Assembly: GCA_002698995.1 (NCBI GenBank)
Contig: PAAX01000030.1
Span: 1-64,000, forward strand
Length of the DNA stretch: 64,000 bases
Source: Ignavibacteriota bacterium
GTDB taxonomy: Bacteria > Bacteroidota > Ignavibacteria > Ignavibacteriales > Melioribacteraceae
Direction of reading: 5' to 3'
The position numbers and the translations under genes are program-made. Under the pieces are notes generated by a model. That model saw nothing but the letters and a program-made list of their open reading frames with translations, ran no database searches and was not told the origin of the DNA. Of the stretch, positions 14,409 to 28,487 are shown one piece after another. How positions within the stretch are numbered: position 1 is the stretch's first letter; each line of letters starts with the position of its first letter.

Positions 14409-15755
14409 TTACTTTTTTATATCGTAGTTTTCTATTTTACTATAGAGCGTTGGTAGGGAGATGCCAAGTATTTTAGCTGCTTTAGGTTTATCCCATTTTA
14501 ATTTAGTGAGAACTTTTTCGATGTGCATTTTTTCGATATCACTGAGTGTGTAATTTAAAACCGAATCGAATTCATAGGATTTTTTTTCTGTGTCGTGTAA
14601 AAGAATATTTTCCTTTTCAAGAACATCGCCTTTTGAAAGAACCACAGCTTGCATCAAAGTATTTTCCAATTCTCTTACATTGCCAATCCATTCATGGTTT
14701 ACAAGCATATCCATAACGGAAGCAGGTAACTTAACAACCGATTTATGAAGTTCTTTATTTACTTTATTCAAAAAATGATTGACTAATAATGGAATATCTT
14801 CGCGTCTTTCTCTTAATGGAGGTAAATTAATTGTAACAATATTCAATCTATAATATAAATCTTCTCTAAACTTTCCAGCTTCTACAAGCTTTTCCAAATT
14901 TTTATTTGTAGCAGCCATTATTCTTGCTTTCATTGGTATTACAGTTTCACCGCCTACTCTCTCAAATTCTTTTTCCTGCAATATTCTTAATAGTTTAATC
15001 TGAAGATTCGGCGATACCTCGGAAATTTCATCGAGAAAGATTGTCCCGTCTCCGGCTAATTCAAATTTTCCTTTTTTATCTTTTATTGAGCCGGTAAAAG
15101 CACCTTTCACATGACCGAATAATTCGCTTTCGAGCAAAGTCTCCGTTAGTGCAGTACAATTAACCGGGATGAATGGAGAGTTTTTAGTTATGCCGCTGTA
15201 ATGAATAGCTCGTGCAACAAGCTCTTTGCCTGTTCCGCTTTCCCCCTGAATTAAAGCTGTAACCCTGCTGCTAGAAACTTGTCCGATCTTTTTGAATATT
15301 TCTTTCATTACTTGTGTTTTACCGATTAGAACATTTCTCGGTTCATAAGTTTCGGCGTTCTCTTCAATAATCGTATCTAGTTTCTCGCTTAATTTTTTAT
15401 TATCCAGTGCTCTTTTGATCGTAATTTTTAAACGGTCTATATCTAGAGGTTTTTCTATAAAATCATAAGCGCCTTTTTGCATCGCATCAACAGTTGTCTG
15501 CATTTCATCAAATGCAGTAATCATAATAAAATGAATACTGCTATCTATCTCTTTTATCTTTTCGAGAACCTCAAGTCCTGTCATTTTCGGCATCTTATAA
15601 TCGCAAATAACAAGATCGGGCATTTCAATTCTTATCAACTCAACACCTTTACTTCCGTCTTCAGCAGCCATAGGTTGATAACCCTGCCGTTTAAGAAAAG
15701 TTGTTAGAGTTTCTCGTATCGATTGATCATCGTCAATTACTAGTATTTTTTCCAT
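14409..15755 (-). CDS. Sigma54-dependent response regulator (NtrC/ZraR type)
   Basis: A 448-residue enhancer-binding protein. The receiver domain has the acidic pocket DDD near residues 8-10, phospho-acceptor D52 (VICDYKMPK) and the switch lysine in EKPLD. The AAA+ domain has Walker A GESGTGKE, the sigma54-contact loop GAFTGS (last residue Ser rather than the common Ala) and Walker B GTIFLDEIS. A Fis-type helix-turn-helix (PKAAKILGISLPTLYSKI) ends the protein. It overlaps the histidine kinase gene by 23 bp, so they form a pair. The gene is followed by the sigma54-driven cus operon. The five -24/-12 promoters with shared upstream arrays make it the likely master activator of the local metal regulon. 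Confidence 0.92.
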   Translation of the reverse strand: MEKILVIDDDQSIRETLTTFLKRQGYQPMAAEDGSKGVELIRIEMPDLVICDYKMPKMTGLEVLEKIKEIDSSIHFIMITAFDEMQTTVDAMQKGAYDFIEKPLDIDRLKITIKRALDNKKLSEKLDTIIEENAETYEPRNVLIGKTQVMKEIFKKIGQVSSSRVTALIQGESGTGKELVARAIHYSGITKNSPFIPVNCTALTETLLESELFGHVKGAFTGSIKDKKGKFELAGDGTIFLDEISEVSPNLQIKLLRILQEKEFERVGGETVIPMKARIMAATNKNLEKLVEAGKFREDLYYRLNIVTINLPPLRERREDIPLLVNHFLNKVNKELHKSVVKLPASVMDMLVNHEWIGNVRELENTLMQAVVLSKGDVLEKENILLHDTEKKSYEFDSVLNYTLSDIEKMHIEKVLTKLKWDKPKAAKILGISLPTLYSKIENYDIKK

Positions 15756-17874
15756 TATCGTTGTTCTTTATTAATAATTCAATTTGAAATATTGTTTCAC
15801 CTTTGCGGGATGATACTAACTCAATTGTTCCGTTGTGAAGCTCAATTATTTTCCGTGCAACCGCCAAACCTAATCCGGTTCCGGATGATTTTGTAGTATA
15901 AAAAGGTTCGAATATTTTTTTCTTCATGTCTTCCGGAATGCCTAAACCATTATCCATTAGCTTAAACAATATTCTTCCGTCTTTCGATTTATCTACAACT
16001 GAATCAATTTTTAATTCACCGTTCTCCTCGACAGATTCATATGAATTTTGAATAAGATTGAGAAATACCTGATGAAGCTTTTCCTTGTCGGCATAAATCT
16101 CGGCACTCTTACCATCGTAAATCACCTTAAAATTCTTATCGGCAAATTTTGCTTTATAATTTCCGATTATTTCTTCAATCAGTTCTTTTATATCAAATTG
16201 TTCTTTATTCAGATTCATTTGTTTAGCAAACAGTAGTACTTCTTTAACCAAATTGTTTAAGCGATTAATTTCCTTTTTGATAATATTCATTGATGATGCA
16301 TCATCCTCGTTCAAGACCAAACTTTCTGCAAGCATATCGCTGTTCATTTTTATCGAAGTTAGTGGAGTTTTGATCTCATGAGTAAGAATAGCTGCCATTT
16401 TACCAAGCGCAGCAAGTTTTTCCGAATGAGCTAACTGAGATTCTAGTTTCTTTAAATCCGTGGTATCGATTGCAATTAGTAGGTAACCGGCAGGCTTCGC
16501 TTCGTCAATATAGAAGGGCGACATCGTAATTAAATAGTTCTTTATTTCTTCATCAAATTGAATACTGATTTCTTCTTCAAGTTTATTTTTGCCATTAAAT
16601 TTTTGCAGCACTTCAGTAAGTTCCTTTAGATTTGTAGCAGGTTCAATTATTTTGAAAATGATACTATTATAAAGATTAGCTTTACTAATTTTCAAAATAT
16701 TGGAAAATTCAGTATTCAACTCAATAATCTTACCCGATAAATTCAACACACATATTGCAGCATTAGATTTTTCGAACGCATTTAATAGCATTTCAATTCT
16801 ATTCTGTTTTAGTTCTAATTCTACACTATCAATTATTAATGTTTTTGACATTTCATTGAATGTTGCTGCTAATTTTCCTAATTCATCATTAGAATAAATA
16901 TCAACAACTGTACCATAATTTCCTCTACGAATTTCAGTGGTTTTCTCTATCAGTTTATTTAAAGGATTAGCAATCAGCTTGGTAATCATAAATGCCATTG
17001 CAGTACTGACAATTATTCCACCAAATAGACTAATAAAAAAGTAGTGTTCCCACTGTTCACCTGTTTGGATATCAAATAAAATTCTTCCCAATGGAATCTG
17101 TATCAATAATATTATAACGGGAACAACAATAACTGCTGAGAAAATAATTTTTTTATTCAATGAGAATGATTGAATTTTCGAAATCGCCGTAGGGAAAAGA
17201 TCAAACCTGGATATCGCAATTGCTGTAGTAAGAATAACACCAATAAAAAATGCGAGCGGACTTATCTCGACTAAATAATAGAATCCAAGTATCCAAGGTA
17301 AATACAATCCGAAAACGAATGCAGTTAAATTGGTAATTATTAAACCAATAAGAACAGTGAAGATTTGTTTTCTTATTTGATTGCTTTTAGAAATAATTGC
17401 TTTCTTAACTAAGAAATAGATACTTAGCGATAATAAAAGAACATACCAAACTAAATATCCGGCATAATAAGGACTATAATGCGCCTCCAATTTTTTTGTA
17501 TGAACATGTGAAGATTCTACGAGATAACCACTCCACAGAAGCAAAATTAGCGCTGCAGAGGGCACTATAAGAAATAGCTTCAACGGGAAACTCATATCCT
17601 TGCTGGAATGAAAGTAATATGAAAAGAATGTTAACACTAGTATTATTAGCAACAGAAATGAATGACATGATTGATCGAGAATTGTTACGTCTTCGGAAGG
17701 CATTATTATAAAATGAACGAAGTGAGAAATCAAATATCCAATTACAAGTAATAAAGTTAACACAAATAATTTTCGTGAAATTTCTGCAATACTTCTCGAA
17801 TATATTATGTAGATAATTCCAATTGCCGAAATTATTGTTGCTATCAAAAATAGAGTGTTAAAAATTTGTGTCAT
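15733..17874 (-). CDS. Membrane histidine kinase of the metal regulon
   Basis: A 713-residue sensor kinase. The N-terminal third holds about seven to nine transmembrane helices, then a HAMP linker (about residues 300-350), a PAS domain (about 365-475), and a HisKA domain with LTHEIKTPLTS, phospho-acceptor His near residue 499. The HATPase domain has LIQNSYES (N box), DNGLGIP and TGLGLAVARK. No large periplasmic loop is evident, so the signal is probably sensed in or near the membrane. The start is taken at the ATG at 17872-17874; a TTG 15 bp upstream is possible. It overlaps the response regulator gene. The cognate signal is probably a metal such as copper, by context only. Confidence 0.9.
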   Translation of the reverse strand: MTQIFNTLFLIATIISAIGIIYIIYSRSIAEISRKLFVLTLLLVIGYLISHFVHFIIMPSEDVTILDQSCHSFLLLIILVLTFFSYYFHSSKDMSFPLKLFLIVPSAALILLLWSGYLVESSHVHTKKLEAHYSPYYAGYLVWYVLLLSLSIYFLVKKAIISKSNQIRKQIFTVLIGLIITNLTAFVFGLYLPWILGFYYLVEISPLAFFIGVILTTAIAISRFDLFPTAISKIQSFSLNKKIIFSAVIVVPVIILLIQIPLGRILFDIQTGEQWEHYFFISLFGGIIVSTAMAFMITKLIANPLNKLIEKTTEIRRGNYGTVVDIYSNDELGKLAATFNEMSKTLIIDSVELELKQNRIEMLLNAFEKSNAAICVLNLSGKIIELNTEFSNILKISKANLYNSIIFKIIEPATNLKELTEVLQKFNGKNKLEEEISIQFDEEIKNYLITMSPFYIDEAKPAGYLLIAIDTTDLKKLESQLAHSEKLAALGKMAAILTHEIKTPLTSIKMNSDMLAESLVLNEDDASSMNIIKKEINRLNNLVKEVLLFAKQMNLNKEQFDIKELIEEIIGNYKAKFADKNFKVIYDGKSAEIYADKEKLHQVFLNLIQNSYESVEENGELKIDSVVDKSKDGRILFKLMDNGLGIPEDMKKKIFEPFYTTKSSGTGLGLAVARKIIELHNGTIELVSSRKGETIFQIELLIKNNDNGKNTSN

Positions 17875-18098: not shown

Positions 18099-18317
18099 AT
18101 GGAAAAAGAAAATACATATTACTTTGATCCCGTGTGCGGAATGAAAGTAACCAAACCAGAAGAGAAAGATCTTCGATTATTTTCCACAGCATATAATGGA
18201 AAAATATTTTATTTTTGCTCTCCTTTTTGTACGGCAGCTTTTCTTGATAATCCGAAAAGATATATAAACAATAAAGATAACTATGATGGAAATGATTCCA
18301 AAAGAAATTCCCTATAG
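18099..18317 (+). CDS. Small YHS/TRASH metal-binding protein
   Basis: A 72-residue protein made mostly of one YHS domain: DPVCGMKV near the start, a YNGKIFYFCSPFC centre and FLDNPKRYI near the end. The three cysteines in DPVCGM and FCSPFC are the expected metal ligands. YHS domains occur in copper- and mercury-linked proteins and in copper-ATPase N-termini. There is no signal peptide, so it should be cytoplasmic. It follows a sigma54-type promoter with a phased A/T-box array, and its end overlaps the next gene by 35 bp. Confidence 0.82.
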   Translation: MEKENTYYFDPVCGMKVTKPEEKDLRLFSTAYNGKIFYFCSPFCTAAFLDNPKRYINNKDNYDGNDSKRNSL

Positions 18318-18648
18318 AGACAAAAGTGAATTTTTGCGAGGCTTTTTACTGCTAATACGTCAGGATAAAAAGATTAGCAAATACGAAAGAAATATGACCT
18401 TAGTAATTGGGAAATATTTTGGTTTTGATGAAGAATTTTGTGAGGAAAGTATTGATTCAATTTTGGTGAATGAATATGTATCGAACGATCCGCCTCAATT
18501 TTCAAGTAAATCTATAGCAAAATATTTTGTGTTAGAATCATATAATATCCTTAAACAAATTCATTTATTAACCGACACAGAGTTGGAATGGTTAAGAAAA
18601 ACTGCCGAGGCTAATCATTTAAAAGGTGAATTGGAAAACCTGTCATAG
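18283..18648 (+). CDS. Small helical protein of unknown function, TerB-like flavour
   Basis: A 121-residue, all-helical, acidic soluble protein that I do not recognise with certainty. The pattern FLRGFLLLIRQDKKISKYERNM followed by helices with conserved acidic residues recalls TerB-like tellurite/stress domains, but the match is weak. It overlaps the end of the YHS gene and so should be translated with it from the same sigma54-type promoter. The exact start could be either of three nearby ATG codons (18283, 18286, 18292). Confidence 0.6.
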   Translation: MMEMIPKEIPYRDKSEFLRGFLLLIRQDKKISKYERNMTLVIGKYFGFDEEFCEESIDSILVNEYVSNDPPQFSSKSIAKYFVLESYNILKQIHLLTDTELEWLRKTAEANHLKGELENLS

Positions 18649-18803: not shown

Positions 18804-18853
18804 AGAACTCTTCTTTTGTGATATGAAATAGATTATATAAAGCAAATTTCCGA

Positions 18854-18870
18854 TCGGCATAATCATTGCA
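18854..18870 (+). promoter_or_regulatory. Sigma54 promoter of the YHS-DUF5676 operon
   Basis: The core CGGCATAATCATTGCA keeps GG and TTGC at exact -24/-12 spacing. The start point would be near 18881, about 60 bases before the YHS gene at 18943. Confidence 0.75.
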
Positions 18871-18942
18871 CATCCACAAATGACATTAGATATAATAAGA
18901 TTTTCCAAAACTTGCAAAGCAAAATAAAACACTGAGGTTATA

Positions 18943-19110
18943 ATGCAAAAAAAACACGATGTACTACGCGACCCTGTTTGTGGTAAAAAAATGAATCCGA
19001 ACAAAGCTTATGCAAAAGTAAAAGTAGGTAAAGACACATTTTATCTATGCTGCCCTGTCTGTCAATCCGAGTTTGAAAATGATCCGGAGAAATTTATCAA
19101 TAAAAAATGA
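18943..19110 (+). CDS. 55-residue YHS metal-binding protein
   Basis: A very short protein that is a single YHS domain: RDPVCGKKMNP, then FYLCCPVCQSEFENDPEKF. It has four cysteines available for soft-metal binding (one in DPVCGK, three in LCCPVC). It lies 72 bp after the sigma54-type promoter and 13 bp before a tandem DUF5676-like membrane gene, so the two should be cotranscribed. YHS and DUF5676 genes are neighbours again at 26046-26528, which supports a shared job, probably metal delivery to or from a membrane partner. Confidence 0.8.
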   Translation: MQKKHDVLRDPVCGKKMNPNKAYAKVKVGKDTFYLCCPVCQSEFENDPEKFINKK

Positions 19111-19123
19111 GTTAGGAGCGAAA

Positions 19124-19699
19124 ATGAAAAAGTTAGAACCTTATCCAATAGCGACAGCGCTTTTTTTCATATTTACAACCTTATACATCGTATGTATCGG
19201 AATAAAGCTGCTTCTGGTTGGTTTCGGAATTGAGGGAATCTGGCACATGCACGAAATTTGGAAGTATTTTTTGCCGGGGTTTAACGGACTCTCTAGTTTA
19301 AGCATACTTGTAGGCTTAATAGAAGTCTCTCTCGGCTCATACTTTTTAGGTTATATAATTGTTCCGGTTTATAATTACCTCGCACAGCCGAACAAACCGG
19401 AGAAAATATACCAGGCAAGCCCTATTAAAATAAGATTTGCCACCTTGTTCTCTACATTGTCGATATACACCGGTATTCTTTTTTCAATTTGCTTATTGTA
19501 CGATCTGGTTGTTCCACCTGAATACCAAATGCTATATGTCTGGGAATTACTGCTGCCGGGCTTCACTGAGTTGAGTTTTACTCAGTATTTACTCGGTTTA
19601 TTCGACATTCTCGTTTACAGTGCATATACGGCATTCATCTTTTCAATTACATTGAACTTTTTTGAAAAAACCGAAATTAAAAAGAATCTGAAAACTTGA
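19124..19699 (+). CDS. Membrane protein with two DUF5676-like halves
   Basis: A 191-residue membrane protein with about four helices in two similar halves. Each half has a helix, a short loop ending in LLPG/FLPGF, then a helix with LGLIE/LLGLFD and a polar end (VPVYNY in the first half). The halves resemble the single-unit DUF5676 protein at 26046-26315. The start is the ATG at 19124-19126, which has a TTAGGAG ribosome binding site; a longer frame runs into the YHS gene. The function is unknown. Its repeated pairing with YHS genes suggests a small metal-related membrane unit. Confidence 0.7.
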   Translation: MKKLEPYPIATALFFIFTTLYIVCIGIKLLLVGFGIEGIWHMHEIWKYFLPGFNGLSSLSILVGLIEVSLGSYFLGYIIVPVYNYLAQPNKPEKIYQASPIKIRFATLFSTLSIYTGILFSICLLYDLVVPPEYQMLYVWELLLPGFTELSFTQYLLGLFDILVYSAYTAFIFSITLNFFEKTEIKKNLKT

Positions 19700-19709
19700 G
19701 GAAAATAAA

Positions 19710-20012
19710 ATGTTAGACAATAATCAAAGCAAAATAGAGTTGCGGAAAAACAAATACGCATCAAAATATTTTGGAGTAGCAACCGGAGTATTAGCGGTAA
19801 TTTTGTTCATGCTGATAATACTTAATTCGGCGGTTTCGAATATTAACGAAGCTCAACTAATTAAGCCGTTTATCCCTTTCTGGAATGGAATGAGTATTCC
19901 TAATATTGCAGGCGGAATTTTTATTTCATTTATTTGGGGCTGGTTAATTGGATTTTTCTTTATGCTGATCTATAACTTTTTTGATAGCAAGTTTTCAAAT
20001 GAAGAAAGATGA
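19710..20012 (+). CDS. Small membrane protein, DUF5676-like
   Basis: A 100-residue protein with a charged N-terminus, two transmembrane helices (about residues 25-48 and 65-90) and a polar tail. The spacing KPFIPFWNGMSIPNIAGG...LIYNFF recalls the LLPGF...VPVYNF pattern of the DUF5676 neighbours, so I regard it as a diverged member. It starts 11 bp after the tandem DUF5676 gene and has a GAGGAAA ribosome binding site, so it belongs to the same sigma54-driven operon. The function is unknown. Confidence 0.6.
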   Translation: MLDNNQSKIELRKNKYASKYFGVATGVLAVILFMLIILNSAVSNINEAQLIKPFIPFWNGMSIPNIAGGIFISFIWGWLIGFFFMLIYNFFDSKFSNEER

Positions 20013-20086
20013 GAAATGGGTTAGGATTTTTGTCCATTGTTTTTTATCTGATTTTGATGTCTCTGATATTCTGGCAAACGGACTGA
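20009..20086 (+). CDS. Possible 25-residue membrane peptide (ATGA-coupled)
   Basis: A tiny frame whose ATG overlaps the stop of the preceding gene as ATGA. It encodes a short N-terminus, one hydrophobic helix (FLSIVFYLILMSLIF) and a TD end. Coupled tiny membrane peptides also occur before lspA (54923). Support is limited to frame, overlap and hydrophobicity. Confidence 0.3.
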   Translation: MRNGLGFLSIVFYLILMSLIFWQTD

Positions 20087-20110
20087 ATCTATTTCCCGGT
20101 CTGTTTGCCA
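20072..20110 (+). terminator. Stem-loop after the YHS-DUF5676 operon
   Basis: TGGCAAACGGAC (20072-20083) pairs with GTCTGTTTGCCA (20099-20110), with one G-T pair. No T run follows, so it may be an mRNA-stabilising hairpin or a Rho-linked end rather than a classical terminator. Confidence 0.55.
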
Positions 20111-20168
20111 ATAACAACAGAGTTTGGAAACTATAAAAAAATATTTTCTGAATTAATTAAACGCACTT

Positions 20169-22529
20169 ATGAAAAATCTGAAACCATTTATAATAATATT
20201 CTTCTTATCTCTCTCAACATTAAGTTTTGAGATAATACTTGCAAGAATATTTTCGTATATCCTCGCTTATCACTTTGTATTTATAATAATTGCTTTTTCC
20301 ATACTTGCTATAGCTCTGGGTCAATTATATACCTCACGTTTAATAGCAAATAATTCCTTTTCCATATCAAAATATTTTATTCTTCTGCAAGCACTGTTCC
20401 CTATAAGCTTAGCTGCGATTTTTATCTTACCTGCAATTGAAAATATCGGCTCCGGTTCTACCGGTTTGTTGATGTATATTTTCCTTTCTGGAATTACCTT
20501 CTTTTTAGTGGGAGTGATAACAGCTTACATATTTCAGAATATTGAAGAAAGGATAAGCAGACTTTATGCAGTTGATTTATTGGGAGCAGCAGCCGGTTCG
20601 TTACTCGGATTATTCTTATTAAATGAGTTCGCAATTTTTCAAGCTCTCGCATTCATTTCTATTATATTTTCCGGAGCTGCTTTTTTTGCTGTAAGTTATG
20701 ATAAAAAAAATAAAGCAAAGCTTATAATATTATCTTCTTTAGCTGCTATTTCAGCAATGTTTTTTATTTTCATCCCACATAGTCCACAACTAACTATAGC
20801 AAAATCTCCTAATAAAGATTTGCTCCGTATTCAAAGTGATCCATCGGTAAAATCGGATATTGTTGATAGTGAATGGAATTCATTTGGTAAAACCGATTTG
20901 GTTGAATTTTATTATACTAATTCAACTTCGTCACAATCTATGTTTATTGACGGTGCTGCTGGAACTCGTGTTGTTAGTATTGCTGAACTAGAAAAAGATT
21001 CAGTAAGGCTATCCCACACCCTTATGCATTCCGGTATATATTTTCCTTTTAATTTTCTGAATGAAAATGAAAAAGATACAGCCTTGATAATTGGTCCCGG
21101 TGGTGGATATGACATTGCTATAGCCTATTTCGGCGGTGTTAAAAAGATTGGCGCTGTTGAAGTAAATCCTTCCTTTGTATCACTAATGAAAAAGTATAAT
21201 CCTTCAACTTTTACAGATCAGCCAAATATTGATGTAATTATAAGTGAAGGAAGAAATTTTGTTAAAACCAGTAATACCAAATATGATCTGATATTTTTGA
21301 CTATCCCTATTACAAAAGGCGTTAGGTCAAGCGATTTCGTTAATCTTACTGAAAATTATTTATTTACTATGGAAGCGGTAGAAGATTATTTAAATATTCT
21401 TACTCCTGAAGGAAGAATTATTTTTACAATGCACAACAGTGAAGAAGTTTATAAAATGCTTTCAAATTATTTGGAGCTTCAATCCAAACGTGGGTTAACT
21501 AATCGCGAAGCATTTAAGTATATTTATGTAGTTGACAACGGCATGAACCCTCTGCTCGTTATCAAAAAGAATGCTTTCAATAAAGAGGATATTGAACCAA
21601 GGCATTACTTATCCCATAAACTTCGCTTCGATAATGGAATTACCTTTTTCCCTTTTACACAACAGTTAAGAAAAGATACTGTACTGCAAGGACAGAATTA
21701 CGAATTTTCGATGTTTGACGATATTTTATATAAAATAGCAAATAACAAATACAACTTTCACGATGTAACTGAAAAAGCCTTAGTAAACCTCCACCCTGTA
21801 TCAGACGATTCACCCTTCTTCTTTAACTATAATTTAGGAATTCCGGATAATATGGATGGCTTAATTTATTCTGTTGTTATCCTAATAGGTTTATTCGCGT
21901 TTTTATTCAAGCGAAATTTTAACGTACGATTCGATCAGCCAAACAAATCGGAAAATTATAGTAATCTATTTAGATATTTTTCTTTCACAGCATTTGTGCT
22001 TGGGTTTTCTTACATATTAGTTCAATCTTACCTATTTCAGATGCTGAATACATTTTTATCCAACCCGCTTGAAAGTTTTTCTGTTTTATTGTTTTCATTT
22101 TTGTTGGGTACCGCCGGTGGAAGTTATGCAGTAAATACAATCAAGCGGCAGTACTTGCTGTTAGGTGTCTATTCGATTATAGCTGCACTGACCGTATTGT
22201 TGATTGAAATTTTTGTTATAATTCCCAGCTACAATAGTCCTTCTACTTTAGAACTTTTTCTATTGGTAGTAATCCCGGCAGTGCTGATTGGAATTCCATT
22301 CCCGGTTCTATTACAGGAAGTCTTTAAAATACGCACCTCAAACGGAATACCGATTATATTAGGTATTTCCGGTGGCGCCGGTTTTATCGGTTCCGTTGGT
22401 GTGCTCATTGTCGCTACTCTTTGGAGTTACAAAGTTGTATTAACTCTAGCAGGCGTCGGTTATATTCTTGTTATTTATATCTACAATAAAGTTTCTAAAC
22501 AGCAGGTTTATTTAAATTACTCTGACTGA
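20169..22529 (+). CDS. Membrane-embedded spermidine-synthase-like protein
   Basis: A 786-residue protein with an N-terminal block of about six helices, a central SAM-binding Rossmann domain like that of spermidine synthase, and a C-terminal block of about seven helices. The nucleotide motif ALIIGPGGGYDI lies near residue 300, with the acidic VEVNPS after it. The IPIT segment differs from the catalytic DxxD/DSTDP loops of SpeE, so aminopropyl transfer is unsure. Such fusions are widespread in bacteria and mostly uncharacterised. It follows the DUF5676 operon by about 80 bp after the hairpin, and I see no sigma54 element directly before it. Confidence 0.75.
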   Translation: MKNLKPFIIIFFLSLSTLSFEIILARIFSYILAYHFVFIIIAFSILAIALGQLYTSRLIANNSFSISKYFILLQALFPISLAAIFILPAIENIGSGSTGLLMYIFLSGITFFLVGVITAYIFQNIEERISRLYAVDLLGAAAGSLLGLFLLNEFAIFQALAFISIIFSGAAFFAVSYDKKNKAKLIILSSLAAISAMFFIFIPHSPQLTIAKSPNKDLLRIQSDPSVKSDIVDSEWNSFGKTDLVEFYYTNSTSSQSMFIDGAAGTRVVSIAELEKDSVRLSHTLMHSGIYFPFNFLNENEKDTALIIGPGGGYDIAIAYFGGVKKIGAVEVNPSFVSLMKKYNPSTFTDQPNIDVIISEGRNFVKTSNTKYDLIFLTIPITKGVRSSDFVNLTENYLFTMEAVEDYLNILTPEGRIIFTMHNSEEVYKMLSNYLELQSKRGLTNREAFKYIYVVDNGMNPLLVIKKNAFNKEDIEPRHYLSHKLRFDNGITFFPFTQQLRKDTVLQGQNYEFSMFDDILYKIANNKYNFHDVTEKALVNLHPVSDDSPFFFNYNLGIPDNMDGLIYSVVILIGLFAFLFKRNFNVRFDQPNKSENYSNLFRYFSFTAFVLGFSYILVQSYLFQMLNTFLSNPLESFSVLLFSFLLGTAGGSYAVNTIKRQYLLLGVYSIIAALTVLLIEIFVIIPSYNSPSTLELFLLVVIPAVLIGIPFPVLLQEVFKIRTSNGIPIILGISGGAGFIGSVGVLIVATLWSYKVVLTLAGVGYILVIYIYNKVSKQQVYLNYSD

Positions 22530-22605
22530 TTCACAGACGCTATCAAGTAAATAACGGAAAGTTGTTAAATTGATACTACCCCTTTGTGAATAGACATATA
22601 GTCAG

Positions 22606-22637
22606 TTGTAGAGACGGGGCATGCCCCATATCTACAA
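22606..22637. repeat. 32-bp imperfect palindrome with GGGGCATGCCCC core
   Basis: Outer arms TTGTAGA and TCTACAA flank a perfect GGGGCATGCCCC core. Palindromes of this TTGTAGAGAC type occur as scattered, probably mobile, intergenic repeats in several bacterial phyla. Only one copy was noticed in this window. Confidence 0.6.
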
Positions 22638-22748
22638 AGTCCATGGTCTTATATATGTAAGTCGTTTGAAAATATATTCTAATGACAAATCCAGATTAAC
22701 TAAAAGGAAAGGAACACAGAACTTCACTGTTTCAATTTGATTAGAAAA

Positions 22749-22781
22749 TTCAAAAAACTAAAAATTCTTTAAGATATTTAA
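22749..22781 (+). promoter_or_regulatory. Phased A/T-box array upstream of the 22895 gene
   Basis: Boxes begin at 22749 (TTCA), 22758 (CTAA), 22769 (TTAA) and 22778 (TTAA). The first is 85 bp upstream of the -24 GG at 22834, as in the other arrays, although two boxes are diverged. Confidence 0.5.
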
Positions 22782-22831
22782 CATCAGCAATGCTACTTCC
22801 CCTTCATACACTTCATAATCAATATTTTTTC

Positions 22832-22847
22832 TTGGTACGGTAATTGG
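22832..22847 (+). promoter_or_regulatory. Sigma54 promoter of the His-rich peptide gene
   Basis: TTGGTACGGTAATTGG matches TTGGYACG-N4-TTGS with correct GG to TTG spacing. The start would be near 22859, giving a short leader with a GGAGG site before the ATG at 22895. Confidence 0.7.
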
Positions 22848-22894
22848 TTAATCTATTAGATATAGATAGATGAACCCAAATTATGGAGGTAGTT

Positions 22895-23047
22895 ATGTTA
22901 AACGTGATTCTTGGTATTTTCATTGCGCTTATTTTTATTGGAGGATTAAATTATTTTCTTACCAGAAGCAGTATAAAAAAGGCAGCTCAGAATGGCGGGT
23001 TGGGTAATCATAATCATAAATCCGGCGGTCATGGTTGCTGCCATTGA
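22895..23047 (+). CDS. 50-residue membrane peptide with His/Cys tail
   Basis: A single transmembrane helix (about residues 3-24) is followed by a short basic stretch and a tail NHNHKSGGHGCCH, well suited to binding metal at the membrane surface. It has a strong GGAGG ribosome binding site and a sigma54-type promoter upstream. A YHS gene follows 40 bp later. A second membrane peptide with a His-rich tail (25844-26017) sits by another YHS/DUF5676 set, so the combination recurs. Confidence 0.7.
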   Translation: MLNVILGIFIALIFIGGLNYFLTRSSIKKAAQNGGLGNHNHKSGGHGCCH

Positions 23048-23087
23048 ATTAATATGCTAAATGTTTAATCTAAAAAAGGAGATTGAC

Positions 23088-23321
23088 ATGGAACTGGACC
23101 CGGTTTGCGGAATGAAACTCAGTAACATTTTTGATACCCCGCGGAGCGCATATAAAGGCAGAGTGATATATTTCTGCTGCCCTAAATGCAAAGGTATGTT
23201 TGATACGAACCCGGATGCCTATACTTCCGGAATACATTTCGAATTTAGTTACAGTAATCCAAAACCCGATAAATGTGATTGTAACGAAAAGGTTTTATCT
23301 ATTCGCCCTTCTCGGAGATAA
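23088..23321 (+). CDS. YHS-domain metal-binding protein
   Basis: A 77-residue cytoplasmic protein. The YHS domain runs from LDPVCGMKL through VIYFCCPKCKGMFDTNPDAY, and a tail adds KCDCNEK, giving extra cysteines. I set the start at the ATG at 23088 because it has an AGGAG ribosome binding site; a longer frame upstream would cover that site. It should be cotranscribed with the His-rich membrane peptide gene just upstream. Confidence 0.8.
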   Translation: MELDPVCGMKLSNIFDTPRSAYKGRVIYFCCPKCKGMFDTNPDAYTSGIHFEFSYSNPKPDKCDCNEKVLSIRPSRR

Positions 23322-23346
23322 TTTGTTAATACTCACGTTGAGAAAA

Positions 23347-23367
23347 AATTGCAGTTGAAATGCAATT
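23347..23367 (+). terminator. Short hairpin after the YHS gene
   Basis: AATTGCA pairs with TGCAATT across a seven-base loop, about 25 bp after the YHS stop. It is weak, with no T run. Confidence 0.3.
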
Positions 23368-23448
23368 GTAATTGAAAAACATTGTTGATGATCTATATTC
23401 TGATATCAGAACTCAACAAGTTGAAACAGGTTATCTAACGTAGATCCT

Positions 23449-23480
23449 TTAAATTTTTTAAAAGTTTTTAATCTTTTTAA
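23449..23480 (+). promoter_or_regulatory. Phased TTAA-box array upstream of the TPR gene
   Basis: Four TTAA boxes begin at 23449, 23458, 23468 and 23477. The first is 85 bp upstream of the -24 GG at 23534, the same distance as in the other sigma54-type control regions here. A separate palindrome (TTCTGATATCAGAA, 23398-23411) lies further upstream. Confidence 0.62.
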
Positions 23481-23531
23481 TTCAATAAATAGACCTTTCC
23501 TCTCATTTGGGCTTATAACCGCAGCTAATTT

Positions 23532-23547
23532 CTGGCACTCTAATTGA
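23532..23547 (+). promoter_or_regulatory. Sigma54 promoter of the TPR gene
   Basis: CTGGCACTCTAATTGA keeps TGGCAC and TTG at exact -24/-12 spacing. The start would be near 23559, about 57 bases before the TPR gene ATG. Confidence 0.72.
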
Positions 23548-23615
23548 TTTTTAAGCAATTAAGCGAAATTACTTAATCGAACAGATATCTACTTCCATTT
23601 TCATTGGAGCTTGAT

Positions 23616-24554
23616 ATGAAAAATTACTTACTGGTACTTGTATTTATTATATCTTTTCTTGTATTGAATGCCCAAGATCAAATTGGCTCTATGGCAGAAA
23701 AATCACCTGATAATTCATTTGAAATAGGTATTCAATATTTTCACAAAGAGAACTTACAACAAGCGGAGGTTAATTTTCTAAAAACGCTGAAAAACAATCC
23801 GGATCATATAGATGCATTAAAATATCTCGCAGAGATTGCAATAGCACAAAAAAAGATTCCGATTGTTGAATACTACTATAGTAAGGTTTTAGAACTAAAT
23901 ACGGAAGATGTGGACGCATTGATAAGTTTAGGAGTAATTCAGTTAAATACGGGGAACTTTGAGCAAGCTGAGATTTTTTTGCAGCGAGCTTTAGAGAACG
24001 AACCCAATAACGAGCTTGCCCTTTTTAATTTGGGTGTTTTATATGGAGCCGCTGGAAAATTATCTACTGCAACTGAAACATTAAAAAAGGTAATTTCAAT
24101 AAACCCCGGTAACGGTAAGTATTATCAAACTCTCGGACTGTATTTTCTGTTGCAAGATCGTTATTCGGATGCAGAAGCAATGTTTCTTAAATCTTTAACG
24201 CTAGACCAAAATTTAATTGATTCACGGAAAGGTTTGGTAATAATTTATCAAAATCAAAATAAGCTTACTTCCTCTCAAAAATATATTCACGATTTGGAAG
24301 TACTTTCGCCGAACCTACCTTCTCTGAATTTATTAAAAGCAAAACAGTATTATCTTAATAATGAAATAGAAATGGCGATCGACTATGCTCAACAAGAAAT
24401 AGAGGAAAACCCTCTTGAACCTGATGCTTATTATTTTCTTGTCGATTTATACAAGATAAAAGGTGAAGATAGAAAAGCTGATGCCCTCTCTATTGCAGCG
24501 CAAAAATTGAACGAAATGGATAACGCCAAACAGCTTAGCAAAAATAAAAGGTAA
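23616..24554 (+). CDS. Exported TPR-repeat protein
   Basis: A 312-residue protein with a signal peptide (MKNYLLVLVFIISFLVLNAQ) and about seven tetratricopeptide repeats, recognisable by the A/G-x-Y-A and NPxN patterns (for example ENEPNNELALFNLGVLYGAAG). It is a periplasmic scaffold; the partner is unknown. The start is the ATG at 23616, since the longer frame begins with TTG. It has its own sigma54-type promoter with the shared A/T-box array, so it should be induced with the cus genes. A second TPR protein of similar type lies at 42574-43431. Confidence 0.8.
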   Translation: MKNYLLVLVFIISFLVLNAQDQIGSMAEKSPDNSFEIGIQYFHKENLQQAEVNFLKTLKNNPDHIDALKYLAEIAIAQKKIPIVEYYYSKVLELNTEDVDALISLGVIQLNTGNFEQAEIFLQRALENEPNNELALFNLGVLYGAAGKLSTATETLKKVISINPGNGKYYQTLGLYFLLQDRYSDAEAMFLKSLTLDQNLIDSRKGLVIIYQNQNKLTSSQKYIHDLEVLSPNLPSLNLLKAKQYYLNNEIEMAIDYAQQEIEENPLEPDAYYFLVDLYKIKGEDRKADALSIAAQKLNEMDNAKQLSKNKR

Positions 24555-24638
24555 GTTAATTTTATATAACTGTTCGTACGTGAATAAATAAAATAGATTA
24601 ACTTATTAAATCAGTCTGAATTTTAATTAGGAGGTAAT

Positions 24639-25715
24639 ATGCAACTTATACCTGAATGGGCGCCGAATATTCATCCGCTCATAGTTCACTTTCCTATAGT
24701 GTTTTTAATATCGGCACTATTCTTCGATGCCGCAGGGTTAATATTTAAAAAATCCGTATGGCTCGAAAAATCTGCAATGATACTTTATGCAATCGGCACC
24801 CTGGCAATTGTTATAACTTATTTTACCGGGCGTTCAGCCGCCGATGGGCTTAACATTCCGGCGAAAGTTATACCTTCGGTAACAGACCATGCCGATTGGG
24901 CTGAAATCACTATGTGGTTTTTCATAATATTTTCAATTGTAAGGTTAACGATTGGTTTGTTTTTAAAATCCGTAAATCGGACTATAGTTATTGTGGTCGT
25001 TATTATTGGTCTTGTGGGTATTTATCCTCTATTTCAAACCGGTGAACATGGCGCCAAATTGGTTTTTGGTTATGGGCTTGGTACAGGCAATATATTGAAA
25101 GATGACTCATCTGCCGTTAAAACTAATAACAACAATGAGACGCAGATTAGCAATTCAAACCTAACTCACAATAATGACGGTTCATGGAAACTAAACGCCG
25201 GAAATAACGTGGTAGATATTCTGAACGATAAGTTTACCTGGATTAACGGTACTATTGAAGATTTTTCCCCAATGTATAATGACGAAAACGCCGCCTTAAT
25301 GTTTCATTTTCAAGATGATATAAAAAACGCAGGTTTCATTTTTGATAATAAGCTTGCAAGCATTCAAGTAACCGCAAAAATAAATATTGACAACTTTAAC
25401 GGCGTAATAGAATTAGTCCATCACTTTTTAGATAAAAACAATTATGATTTTCTCGGGATCGCTGATCAAAAGTTATCTCTTTCCAGAAAAATTAATGGAA
25501 AGATTAAGAATTTCGAAGAAAGTAGTTTTTCCTCCAAAGGATGGATAGAATTGAAATTAATCACCGACGGTTCTCACTTTAGAGGTTATATAAATAACAA
25601 ACTAATTTTACACGGACACGGCGATGAACCGGAGCCCGGCAGCATTGGAATATTATTTTCCGGTAAAGGTAATGTAAGTATTAGAATGATTGATGCTGTT
25701 GTATTGGAAAACTAA
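24639..25715 (+). CDS. DUF2231 membrane domain fused to a lectin-like domain
   Basis: A 358-residue protein. Residues 1-150 form a DUF2231 membrane domain with four helices (IHPLIVHFPIVFLISALFFD is its hallmark, with conserved His). A linker is followed by a beta-sandwich domain (about residues 180-358) of the concanavalin-like/DUF1080 type. DUF2231 proteins are often near cytochrome or copper genes and may bind haem or metal through the conserved histidines. The gene has a strong GGAGG site. No sigma54 element is seen directly before it. Confidence 0.72.
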   Translation: MQLIPEWAPNIHPLIVHFPIVFLISALFFDAAGLIFKKSVWLEKSAMILYAIGTLAIVITYFTGRSAADGLNIPAKVIPSVTDHADWAEITMWFFIIFSIVRLTIGLFLKSVNRTIVIVVVIIGLVGIYPLFQTGEHGAKLVFGYGLGTGNILKDDSSAVKTNNNNETQISNSNLTHNNDGSWKLNAGNNVVDILNDKFTWINGTIEDFSPMYNDENAALMFHFQDDIKNAGFIFDNKLASIQVTAKINIDNFNGVIELVHHFLDKNNYDFLGIADQKLSLSRKINGKIKNFEESSFSSKGWIELKLITDGSHFRGYINNKLILHGHGDEPEPGSIGILFSGKGNVSIRMIDAVVLEN

Positions 25716-25843
25716 AAAACGGAGATATTAATCCAATATTTTTAACGGATTAGTATTTCCGTATCATTTGAAGAGTGCCAATATGTTAAGATCGATAAAT
25801 ATCTTACATAAAATCTTATTGAATTTAAGAAGGGAGATCGAAC

Positions 25844-26017
25844 ATGGAATGGTTAGCGGAAAACTGGTTTTGGGTACTGATCGGCATTCTTTTTGTCGTG
25901 ACGCATCTATTTGGTCACGGGAGTCATGGCGGACACGGGGGACACCTCGAATCCGGGAAACATGATAATCACAAAGAGGAAAATAAAGATCGAAACTCCG
26001 GACATGGACATCATTGA
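25844..26017 (+). CDS. 57-residue membrane peptide with very His-rich tail (DUF2933-like)
   Basis: One transmembrane helix (ENWFWVLIGILFVVTHLF) is followed by HGSHGGHGGH and more His near the end (SGHGHH), an obvious metal-binding tail. It has an AGGGAG ribosome binding site. Small DUF2933-like proteins of this form sit in copper and other heavy-metal loci. A DUF5676 gene and a YHS gene follow immediately. Confidence 0.72.
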   Translation: MEWLAENWFWVLIGILFVVTHLFGHGSHGGHGGHLESGKHDNHKEENKDRNSGHGHH

Positions 26018-26045
26018 CAAATATAATTAAAGAAGGAGATTTATA

Positions 26046-26315
26046 ATGCTGAACATAAAGATTGTAACATGGTCATTGGGGATTTTTACTGCCGTTAGCT
26101 TTATTGTTTGTGTAAGCTATGGTCTTATAACTCCGGAAAGCATTCACATGCATACATTTTTGGAATCAGTGCTCCCGGCTTTTAAATGGTTAACCTTCTG
26201 GGGTTTTATACTTGGTCTTATAGAAAGTTTTTTATACGGTGTTTACGCAGGTTTGGTTTTTGTTCCGGTTTACAATTTCTTTTATAAAAAATGGGCAATA
26301 GCTAAACCAAACTAA
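26046..26315 (+). CDS. DUF5676 family small membrane protein
   Basis: An 89-residue, two-helix membrane protein with the family hallmarks: an N-terminal helix, SIHMHTFLESVLPAFKW, a second helix with LGLIESFLYG and the end VPVYNFF. It has an AAGGAG ribosome binding site and is followed by a YHS gene 33 bp later. DUF5676 has no known function. Here it recurs beside YHS and His-rich peptide genes, which argues for a metal role. Confidence 0.8.
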   Translation: MLNIKIVTWSLGIFTAVSFIVCVSYGLITPESIHMHTFLESVLPAFKWLTFWGFILGLIESFLYGVYAGLVFVPVYNFFYKKWAIAKPN

Positions 26316-26348
26316 CTAATCATTCAATAAAAATAATAGAGGTGTAAA

Positions 26349-26528
26349 ATGATACACGATCCAGTATGCGGTATGGAAATAAAAGATATAAACAGTGCAG
26401 AAAAAGTAGAGTACAAGGGAAATACTTATTACTTCTGTACTACTCTTTGTAAAGTTCAATTTGAACAAGATCCTGAAAAGTATGTGAAGAAAGATGATGA
26501 TGAACATATGGGGCATCATCACCATTGA
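26349..26528 (+). CDS. YHS metal-binding protein with His-rich end
   Basis: A 59-residue protein consisting of a YHS domain (HDPVCGMEI, then YYFCTTLCKVQFEQDPEKY) and a C-terminal HMGHHHH tail. The three Cys residues and the His tail are likely metal ligands. It follows the DUF5676 gene closely and has an AGAGGTG ribosome binding site, so it is in the same transcription unit. Confidence 0.8.
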   Translation: MIHDPVCGMEIKDINSAEKVEYKGNTYYFCTTLCKVQFEQDPEKYVKKDDDEHMGHHHH

Positions 26529-26651: not shown

Positions 26652-27314
26652 ATGGAAAGAGGAATTGAACATTCCGGTGCATGGGCGGTTGCGATAGTAG
26701 TTATCGTTATCGCATCATGGCTGCTATACCGTTATCTCGCTCCAAAGACCTGGCGGGAATGGACAGGCGCCGGACTTATTCAGGCTTTTATTATTGCATT
26801 GTATGCAGAGATGTATGGCTTTCCGCTTACAATTTATTTTCTTGTTAGGTTTTTGGGATTAGATAGTACATATCTTAGTGCAAATCTTTGGTCCACCCTG
26901 ATAGGTGTTGGCGAAACCGGAATGATGGTCTCGATGATCATTGGGTATATATTACTTTTCACAGGATTTGGAATTTTCCTTAAAGGTTGGAGACAACTTT
27001 ACAAAGCTCATCAAGAAAACCGACTGGCAACAGGAGGATTATACAGCCTGGTTCGACATCCTCAATATACGGGACTCTTTATAGCGTTATTCGGTGAAGG
27101 TGTTGTTCATTGGCCAACGCTTTTCTCGGTTGGACTGTTTCCAATTATAGTAATTGTTTATTACCGGCTTGCCCGTAAGGAAGAACAGAAAACCATTGAA
27201 AAATTTGGCGATGAATATATAGAATACAAAAAGCATGTTCCTATGTTTATTCCGGTGAAGGGAAAATGGCGGAAGCTTGTTGAGAATTCCAATATATCTT
27301 CAAATGATACGTAA
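26652..27314 (+). CDS. Isoprenylcysteine carboxyl methyltransferase-like membrane enzyme
   Basis: A 220-residue membrane protein with about five helices. The C-terminal half has GGLYSLVRHPQYTGLF and the later RKEEQKTIEKFGDEYIEYKKHVPMFIP block, the hallmark of the ICMT/phospholipid methyltransferase-like family, which binds S-adenosylmethionine. In bacteria the acceptor is usually unknown; some members methylate thiols or lipids. It lies between the YHS set and a GAPDH gene. A link to metals is possible (thiol methylation) but only inferred. Confidence 0.78.
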   Translation: MERGIEHSGAWAVAIVVIVIASWLLYRYLAPKTWREWTGAGLIQAFIIALYAEMYGFPLTIYFLVRFLGLDSTYLSANLWSTLIGVGETGMMVSMIIGYILLFTGFGIFLKGWRQLYKAHQENRLATGGLYSLVRHPQYTGLFIALFGEGVVHWPTLFSVGLFPIIVIVYYRLARKEEQKTIEKFGDEYIEYKKHVPMFIPVKGKWRKLVENSNISSNDT

Positions 27315-27443: not shown

Positions 27444-28487
27444 ATGACTAACAAAAAAATTAAAGCAGCCGTAAATGGTTACGGCATTATCGGAAAACGG
27501 GTTGCAGATGCAATCAAACTTCAGCCGGATATGGAATTGGTTGGTGTTGCCGACGTAGAAAGCGATTATCGGGTTAAAGCCGCAGTTGTTTTGGGCTTAC
27601 CGATTTATGCATCACTGCCGGAAAAATCAAATGAAATGAAAGATGCCGGTATTCCAATAGCAGGAAATTTGGATGACTTACTAAAGCAGATTGATATAAT
27701 AGTTGATTGTACCCCAAAAGGAATCGGTGCAAAAAATCTTGAGCTTTATATAAAAGCCGGTGTAAAAGCAATTTATCAGGGCGGCGAAAAGCACAGTCTT
27801 ACAGGTCATTCTTTTGTAGCGCAAGCAAATTATGAAACAGCATTGGGATTGGATGCAACACGTGTTGTCTCATGTAATACCACAAGCACGGTCCGCACGC
27901 TTACAGCTTTGCGTAATGCCGGCTTGCTCAAAAAAGCACGAGGTGTTTTAATAAGACGCGCTACAGATCCCTGGGAATCTGACCATAGCGGAATTATGAA
28001 TACAGTTGTACCCGAACCGCATATTCCAAGCCATCAGGGACCGGATGCTCAAACAGTTGTACCGGAACTTGATGTAATAACAATGGCAGCTAAAGGGTCT
28101 CATACACAAACTCATAATCACTACTGGGTTGTAGAACTTACCCGCGATGCAAGCAGAGACGACGTGCTGGCAGCATTTAAAGCAGCTTCACGAATTGCTT
28201 TTATCCGAATGAGTGACGGCATTGTTGCGCTTAACAGCTCTATTGAATTAATGAAAGATATTGGACGACCTCGCGGCGATATGTGGGAAGTTGCATTATG
28301 GGAAGATGTATTAACCGTTAACGGAAATGAAGTCTATTACACTTATCAGGTTTATAATGAAGCCATTGTTGTTCCGGAGAGCATTGATGCGATCCGTGCT
28401 CTGATGGGTACGGTTAAAGATGGCTCTGAATCTATCCTTATTACCGATGAAGCAATGGGAATGCGGAAAGAATTTTTATATGAATAA
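27444..28487 (+). CDS. gap: Type II (archaeal-type) glyceraldehyde-3-phosphate dehydrogenase
   Basis: A 347-residue enzyme that oxidises glyceraldehyde 3-phosphate with NAD(P) and phosphate. The N-terminal Rossmann motif is VNGYGIIGKRV, the catalytic Cys near residue 143 lies in VVSCNTTS, and VPEPHIPSHQGPD and TMAAKGSHTQTHNHY are conserved in the archaeal GAPDH group. It is clearly distant from the usual bacterial GapA (which has SCTTNC). Type II enzymes are common in archaea and rare in bacteria, so a transferred gene is plausible. The following small gene overlaps its end by 8 bp. Confidence 0.87.
   Translation: MTNKKIKAAVNGYGIIGKRVADAIKLQPDMELVGVADVESDYRVKAAVVLGLPIYASLPEKSNEMKDAGIPIAGNLDDLLKQIDIIVDCTPKGIGAKNLELYIKAGVKAIYQGGEKHSLTGHSFVAQANYETALGLDATRVVSCNTTSTVRTLTALRNAGLLKKARGVLIRRATDPWESDHSGIMNTVVPEPHIPSHQGPDAQTVVPELDVITMAAKGSHTQTHNHYWVVELTRDASRDDVLAAFKAASRIAFIRMSDGIVALNSSIELMKDIGRPRGDMWEVALWEDVLTVNGNEVYYTYQVYNEAIVVPESIDAIRALMGTVKDGSESILITDEAMGMRKEFLYE

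Follow-up and report, generated by a model that had tools for sequence, protein, structure and literature searches.

A conserved unit of single-helix peptide, DUF5676 and YHS genes, possibly handling copper or silver, in bacterial metal islands

Do small genes that recur beside metal pumps belong together and, if so, what might they do? The question is raised by positions 18,943 to 26,528 of a 64,000-nucleotide stretch of DNA (the window, i.e., positions 1 to 64,000 of the forward strand of contig PAAX01000030.1, GenBank assembly GCA_002698995.1) from an Ignavibacteriota bacterium of the Melioribacteraceae. Genes for YHS domains, for two-helix membrane proteins of the family DUF5676 (PF18926) and for tiny single-helix peptides lie here in a metal island which, as read from its open reading frames (ORFs), contains RND pumps, metal P-type ATPases, MerR and ArsR regulators, and an NtrC-type regulator (14409-15755) with its kinase (15733-17874). 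An earlier note, made from the sequence alone, had suggested that these genes form a membrane metal unit induced with the Cu/Ag pump. Judged from sequence comparison, peptide, DUF5676 and YHS are one conserved unit, encoded side by side or fused, in several phyla.

All of the YHS, DUF5676-type and His/Cys peptide genes named in that note were present, as Pfam matches or ORFs (Table 1). One triplet of them is complete (25844-26528), and two further sets are partial or expanded (18943-20012 and 22895-23321). As described, the YHS genes at 18943 and 26349 lie beside DUF5676-type genes (19124 and 26046), and those at 23088 and 26349 lie near tiny peptides (22895 and 25844), each with one hydrophobic helix and a His/Cys tail and neither matching any Pfam or NCBIfam family. 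The four YHS genes at 18099, 18943, 23088 and 26349 all exceeded the PF04945 cut-off of 30.3 bits. The 4.23-Mb genome encodes six YHS domains, all on one 126-kb contig, which also carries its sole PF18926 match above cut-off, i.e., the DUF5676 gene of the triplet. This gene is of subtype A (motif HMHxFLExVLPAF...LGLIESF), subtype B being the common flavobacterial-type form. The second half of the tandem protein at 19124 scored 20.2 bits, under the PF18926 cut-off, and both of its domains align with clear DUF5676 members (blastp about 1e-9); the His-Met-His (HMH) motif is kept in the first domain and the Cys of helix 1 in both. The gene at 19710 did not match the PF18926 profile. With a blastp match at 3e-6 to a type B member, and a counterpart fused to the tandem in locus L060, it is classed by sequence as DUF5676-like, below family membership.

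A scan of genome contigs gave 80 loci (L056-L135) with subtype A matches, from Ignavibacteria, other Bacteroidota, Proteobacteria, Acidobacteria, Nitrospirae and Gemmatimonadota; within the window's own phylum, DUF5676 was carried by 25 of 297 genomes. ORFs in the loci were called with a simple script, and some loci are incomplete. A peptide of the general form MEWLxxNWfWvl...MHxFGHGGHGG..H was encoded 5' of DUF5676 on the same strand in 65 of the 80 loci (62 within 144 bp; median gap over all 65 loci, 14 bp), and at no other position in the loci. Twenty control regions of 20 kb, placed arbitrarily in four carrier genomes, contained no MEWL peptide, no YHS domain and no metal ATPase. When whole carrier genomes were searched with an alignment of relatives of peptide 25844 (A3, in which N7, H21 and H25 are invariant), the peptide was found in 31/31, so that both partners are present in each. 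Among 343 genomes of the order of Marinobacter flavimaris, a full-length peptide (E below 1e-15) occurred four times, in every case with a DUF5676 gene (53-62 bits) 22-32 bp away, and the other DUF5676 subtypes in these genomes were accompanied by no full-length MEWL peptide. From the reverse searches (31/31 and 4/4), the peptide and subtype A DUF5676 are therefore near-obligate partners.

The YHS domain is a frequent partner of this pair, not an obligate one. Across the 31 genomes, 43 of 104 YHS genes lay no more than 10 kb from the pair, where uniform placement would give 0.56 (77-fold), and 23 of the genomes contributed to this count. A YHS gene started no more than 200 bp downstream of DUF5676 in the window and in ten loci (L056, L069, L071, L079, L086, L096, L105, L108, L111 and L128), some of the ten having no intact MEWL peptide in front; there was no YHS gene near subtype B DUF5676. 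The earlier note had named neighbourhood statistics in advance as the result that might overturn its proposal, and both the peptide-DUF5676 pairing and the YHS enrichment proved to be far beyond chance. Because the loci were counted without lineage correction, P values overstate their independence; neither the fusions nor the distribution across phyla rests on these values.

These fusions join the same partners. On plasmids of Roseibium, Halomonas, Nitratireductor, Indioceanicola, Hoeflea and Alteromonas, helix, His/Cys segment and YHS domain form one ORF directly upstream of DUF5676; in several cases the two ORFs overlap by 8 bp. Similar helix-YHS proteins are encoded in L071 (7303-7716, a fused counterpart of 22895 and 23088), L078 and L096 (with a degenerate YHS domain). 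A Ciceribacter plasmid encodes a helix of this kind joined to DUF5676 (L175:2369-2734), and L060 has three DUF5676 domains in one 293-aa protein equivalent to window genes 19124 plus 19710. A fusion of YHS with DUF5676 in one ORF was looked for and none was found. The seeming fusion of MEWL peptide and DUF5676 in L086 was left uncounted; the reading frame there appears to shift within the His tail. In view of the fusions, the three groups in the window look like split and expanded versions of one unit. Genome G144 has the same sets: downstream of an RND pump and a PII-like gene, in the same orientation, come YHS, the tandem DUF5676 gene and the third copy, and a MEWL peptide-DUF5676 pair is about 6 kb from the YHS/tandem set.

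Table 1. Genes and putative sigma54-type sites of the three sets and their surroundings in the window
Feature	Coordinates	Strand	Remarks
YHS singleton (fourth)	18099..18317	+	PF04945 48.3 bits; overlooked in earlier note
YHS singleton	18943..19110	+	PF04945 35.3 bits; heads expanded set
Tandem of two DUF5676-like domains, 191 aa	19124..19699	+	orthologues in L056, L058, L059, L060
Third, divergent DUF5676-like gene, without Cys or HMH	19710..20012	+	overlooked in earlier note; orthologues in L056, L058, L059
Single-helix peptide, His/Cys tail (GGHGCCH), 50 aa	22895..23047	+	counterpart G144 C64:43622-43753
YHS singleton	23088..23321	+	PF04945 41.2 bits; after His/Cys peptide 22895
Single-helix peptide, His-rich tail (MEWL...GHGGHGG type), 57 aa	25844..26017	+	first gene of complete triplet
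DUF5676 subtype A, two-helix membrane protein	26046..26315	+	PF18926 55.9 bits, cut-off 27.6
YHS singleton, His tail	26349..26528	+	PF04945 64.7 bits; third gene of complete triplet
Isoprenylcysteine-methyltransferase-like membrane enzyme	26652..27314	+	NCBIfam matches below cut-off
Sigma54-type site	14109-14094	minus	before cus/tolC operon; among best two
Sigma54-type -24/-12 site CGGCATAATCATTGCA	18855..18870	+	before YHS 18943; among best two
Weak sigma54-type site TGGTACGGTAATTGGT (TTGG for TTGC)	22833..22848	+	before peptide 22895
Sigma54-type site	23533-23548	+	before TPR gene 23616

The surroundings of the unit point to metals. A gene for a P-type ATPase, RND pump, cupredoxin or multicopper oxidase was present in 39 of the 50 loci of at least 15 kb and in 0/20 controls, and any of these or a YHS gene in 46/50. 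P-type ATPase genes were found in 34 of the 50 large loci, a count made by homology that may take in metal ATPases other than those for copper. An enzyme resembling isoprenylcysteine methyltransferase (ICMT) was encoded near the unit in 34/80 loci and 0/20 controls. On plasmids, annotated gene orders included P-type ATPase-x-DUF2933-DUF5676 (Polaromonas), MerR-x-HMA-DUF2933-DUF5676-ppk2-ATPase (Methylophaga), MerR-CopA-plastocyanin-helixYHS-DUF5676-ICMT (Alteromonas stellipolaris), YHS-DUF5676-ICMT-SHOCT-Cu ATPase (Halomonas) and ATPase-CueR-YHS-DUF5676 (Nitratireductor); in Roseibium, CueR and a P-type ATPase lie within 9 kb of the unit. Gene identity, conserved order, statistics, fusions and metal-gene neighbourhood together establish the unit itself.

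The earlier note had also placed two of the groups behind sigma54-type promoters. Over the whole window, sigma54-type sites were no commoner than chance, but four of them lay 47-133 bp upstream of gene starts, where 0.47 would be expected (P about 0.001). There is one RpoN gene in the genome, and one relative, L056, has the same DNA upstream at the sigma54 sites (100% identical there). As far as such motifs go, the claim held for the 18943 group and weakly for the 22895 group; it did not extend to the complete triplet at 25844, which has no upstream sigma54 site. Only for the 18943 group do they make joint induction with the Cu/Ag pump plausible. The note's wider interpretation is thus partly supported, i.e., pairing and fusions bear out a unit and its neighbourhood a link to metals, while the sigma54 link fails for the complete triplet.

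A 121-aa protein without a Pfam match (18283-18648), loosely TerB-like by eye, adjoins a YHS gene, and its counterparts in G144 (C64:35631-36020 and C64:37269-37478, the second short) also lie beside YHS. Next to the DUF5676 genes, window positions 20169-22529 encode a spermidine-synthase-like domain between membrane helices, seen in 7/80 loci; an 809-aa gene in G088 resembles it. Small Cys-rich ORFs (GGCCGGSS...GKCCCSKN type) stand 5' of DUF5676 in L172, L176 and L177 (Roseovarius and Paracoccus plasmids), in place of a helix or YHS partner. A second type of pair, a His-rich single-helix peptide (MSETLIYIVIFAAVMFFMHRGHGAHGG...) beside another protein with two membrane helices, occurs in L037 (G144:C64:30761-31240) and in L057, about 5.2-5.6 kb upstream of DUF5676; its two-helix protein is perhaps a further DUF5676-like variant. 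A type II (archaeal-type) glyceraldehyde-3-phosphate dehydrogenase (GAPDH) lies by the unit in the window (27444-28487) and in 12/80 loci, and a phosphoketolase in 13/80; still other loci have glycogen phosphorylase, acetate kinase, phosphoglucomutase or isoamylase. This recurrent carbon-metabolism set in copper islands is possibly a bypass for use when copper inhibits the normal GAPDH. In L056, another metagenome-assembled genome of the Melioribacteraceae, the window island (18840-26000) recurs with intergenic DNA 100% identical at three tested places, but two minus-strand ORFs, apparently a transposase insertion, separate the counterparts of 22529 and 22895; the shared island is probably a recent transfer. 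Rfam and tRNA scans of the whole window gave no matches.

How might such a unit work? Among 66 subtype A sequences, C22, G26, P30, P44 and N77 are invariant, and M35 (98%), E60 (98%) and H34 (93%) nearly so, with H36 at 72%. DUF5676 was modelled as a hairpin of helices 4-28 and 51-85 (pLDDT 82.7), and from this model and the charge pattern both of its ends are predicted to lie inside and the HMH loop outside. Because the N-terminus of the single helix is acidic or uncharged, and in the fusions an Arg directly follows the helix, the His tail and the YHS domain are probably cytoplasmic. The predicted topology suggests a membrane platform that takes up Cu(I)/Ag(I) inside the cell and passes it to an exporter. 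We favour, with a probability of roughly 45%, an inner-membrane unit in which Cu(I)/Ag(I) is collected on the cytoplasmic side and then delivered to export pumps; its topology, metal binding, hand-over, metal identity and oligomeric state we infer. DUF5676 would be a two-helix hairpin in which helix 1 carries the invariant Cys, helix 2 the nearly invariant Glu and the outer loop the H-M-H motif; next to it, the single-helix partner would extend its His/Cys tail into the cytoplasm. Whether free or fused to that helix, the YHS domain would act on the cytoplasmic side too. The unit would collect and buffer copper or silver there and pass the metal to the neighbouring exporter, which in most loci is a P1B ATPase and in some Ignavibacteria an RND pump.

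Some observations weigh against this reading. Besides the absence of a sigma54 site before the complete triplet, 11 of the 50 large loci have no recognised pump, cupredoxin or multicopper oxidase gene, and four of these have no YHS gene either. Certain alphaproteobacterial DUF5676 genes have neither a helix nor a YHS partner, with a small Cys-rich ORF nearby.

The loci without a recognised pump gene nearby would be explained if DUF5676 and its single-helix partner were themselves a minimal transporter for Cu(I)/Ag(I), acting without an ATPase as an exporter or a channel. It would be an oligomer, perhaps a trimer of hairpins, in which the helix-1 Cys, helix-2 Glu and outer HMH line the path, and His tails and YHS domains load it from the cytoplasm. 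The invariant C22 and near-invariant E60 within the membrane helices, the HMH at the outer loop, and the natural fusion of three DUF5676 domains in one protein fit such a path. However, a structure search with the DUF5676 model and a profile search of the PDB gave no usable match and no resemblance to any transporter, the three-domain model is too poor to show a pore, most loci have a pump as well, and the third domain in the window (19710) lacks both Cys and HMH. We regard this as unlikely, although it is the strongest of the alternatives.

A slightly smaller chance attaches to the idea that peptide and DUF5676 belong to the P1B ATPase encoded next to them, as accessory or regulatory subunits, the His tail reporting or adjusting metal load. 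The proteins are small, small membrane proteins tune other pumps, and P-type ATPase genes are present in 34 of the large loci and adjacent in several plasmids. Yet the pumps vary, including CPC-type and CPH-type ATPases and the RND pump of G144, and some loci have none nearby; one conserved partner beside different pumps speaks against a dedicated subunit.

Somewhat less probable again is a task outside metal resistance, in which the unit would supply copper or adapt the membrane when oxygen is low (cuproenzyme assembly, fermentative carbon metabolism). In microoxic Bradyrhizobium, FixK2 activates a related DUF2933-ICMT operon (PMC9104804); some relatives may thus respond to low oxygen and not to metal, which also tells against metal hand-over. 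Phosphoketolase, type II GAPDH, glycogen enzymes and acetate kinase recur nearby, but export pumps and copper regulators are the commoner neighbours. That the small genes were merely gathered in metal islands by gene transfer, with no joint function, is very improbable: their island and plasmid location and the nearly identical copies in different Melioribacteraceae would fit, but order and strand are fixed, three kinds of fusion exist, and most gaps, in one phylum as in another, measure 3-40 bp.

Handing of metal to export pumps, the reading that we prefer, concerns families that have attracted little comment: DUF5676 had no mention in the open-access literature searched, and DUF2933 (PF11666) appeared there in annotation lists and tables only, both being families without an assigned function. 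DUF2933 touches the peptide itself. It matched neither peptide 25844 nor anything else in the whole genome, and a DUF2933-like query found no matches among the plasmids; the MEWL peptide of L090 barely reached its cut-off (21.1 compared with 21.0 bits), and NCBI annotates the upstream peptide as DUF2933 on two plasmids. The longer DUF2933-like proteins have two helices, whereas the window peptide has one. Identity of this DUF2933 relative with Sil ORF105/SilG was considered and rejected, SilG being a CopG-type CxxC protein (PMC4356207).

The pair of peptide and DUF5676 is spread over at least five phyla, near copper pumps and on plasmids among other places. Separate unknowns are thereby joined into a single hypothesis, that of a common, undescribed part of bacterial copper/silver defence, and an annotation rule follows: where a MEWL/GHGGHGG peptide is encoded a short way upstream of DUF5676, the locus probably handles copper or silver.

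Parts of the unit have known counterparts. In the merR-copA-cupredoxin-DUF2933-ICMT cluster of Alteromonas and others, copA is copper-induced; the small gene was given no function, and YHS and DUF5676 went unmentioned (PMC8478169). That cluster shares with ours a small protein and ICMT after copA, and the A. stellipolaris plasmid version adds helix-YHS and DUF5676, whereas the window unit is defined by peptide, DUF5676 and YHS and occurs with several different pumps. Copper ATPases and the Mycobacterium phlei adenylyl cyclase have the same YHS domain, in which an Asp and three Cys are the proposed ligands, and Cu2+ activates the cyclase (PMC4626032); in the unit the domain is free-standing or helix-tethered beside DUF5676. 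The membrane-tethered copper chaperone CupA of Streptococcus pneumoniae shuttles Cu(I) to the CopA ATPase, its copper-binding domain being tethered by a membrane leader and encoded with a copper exporter (PMC5646241). The window unit is similar in principle, with a single helix predicted, from hydrophobicity and charge, to tether the metal domain. However, CupA has a cupredoxin fold, whereas the unit has a His/Cys tail and YHS as arms, plus the two-helix partner DUF5676. The analogy suggests that the unit may work like CupA without being a member of its family.

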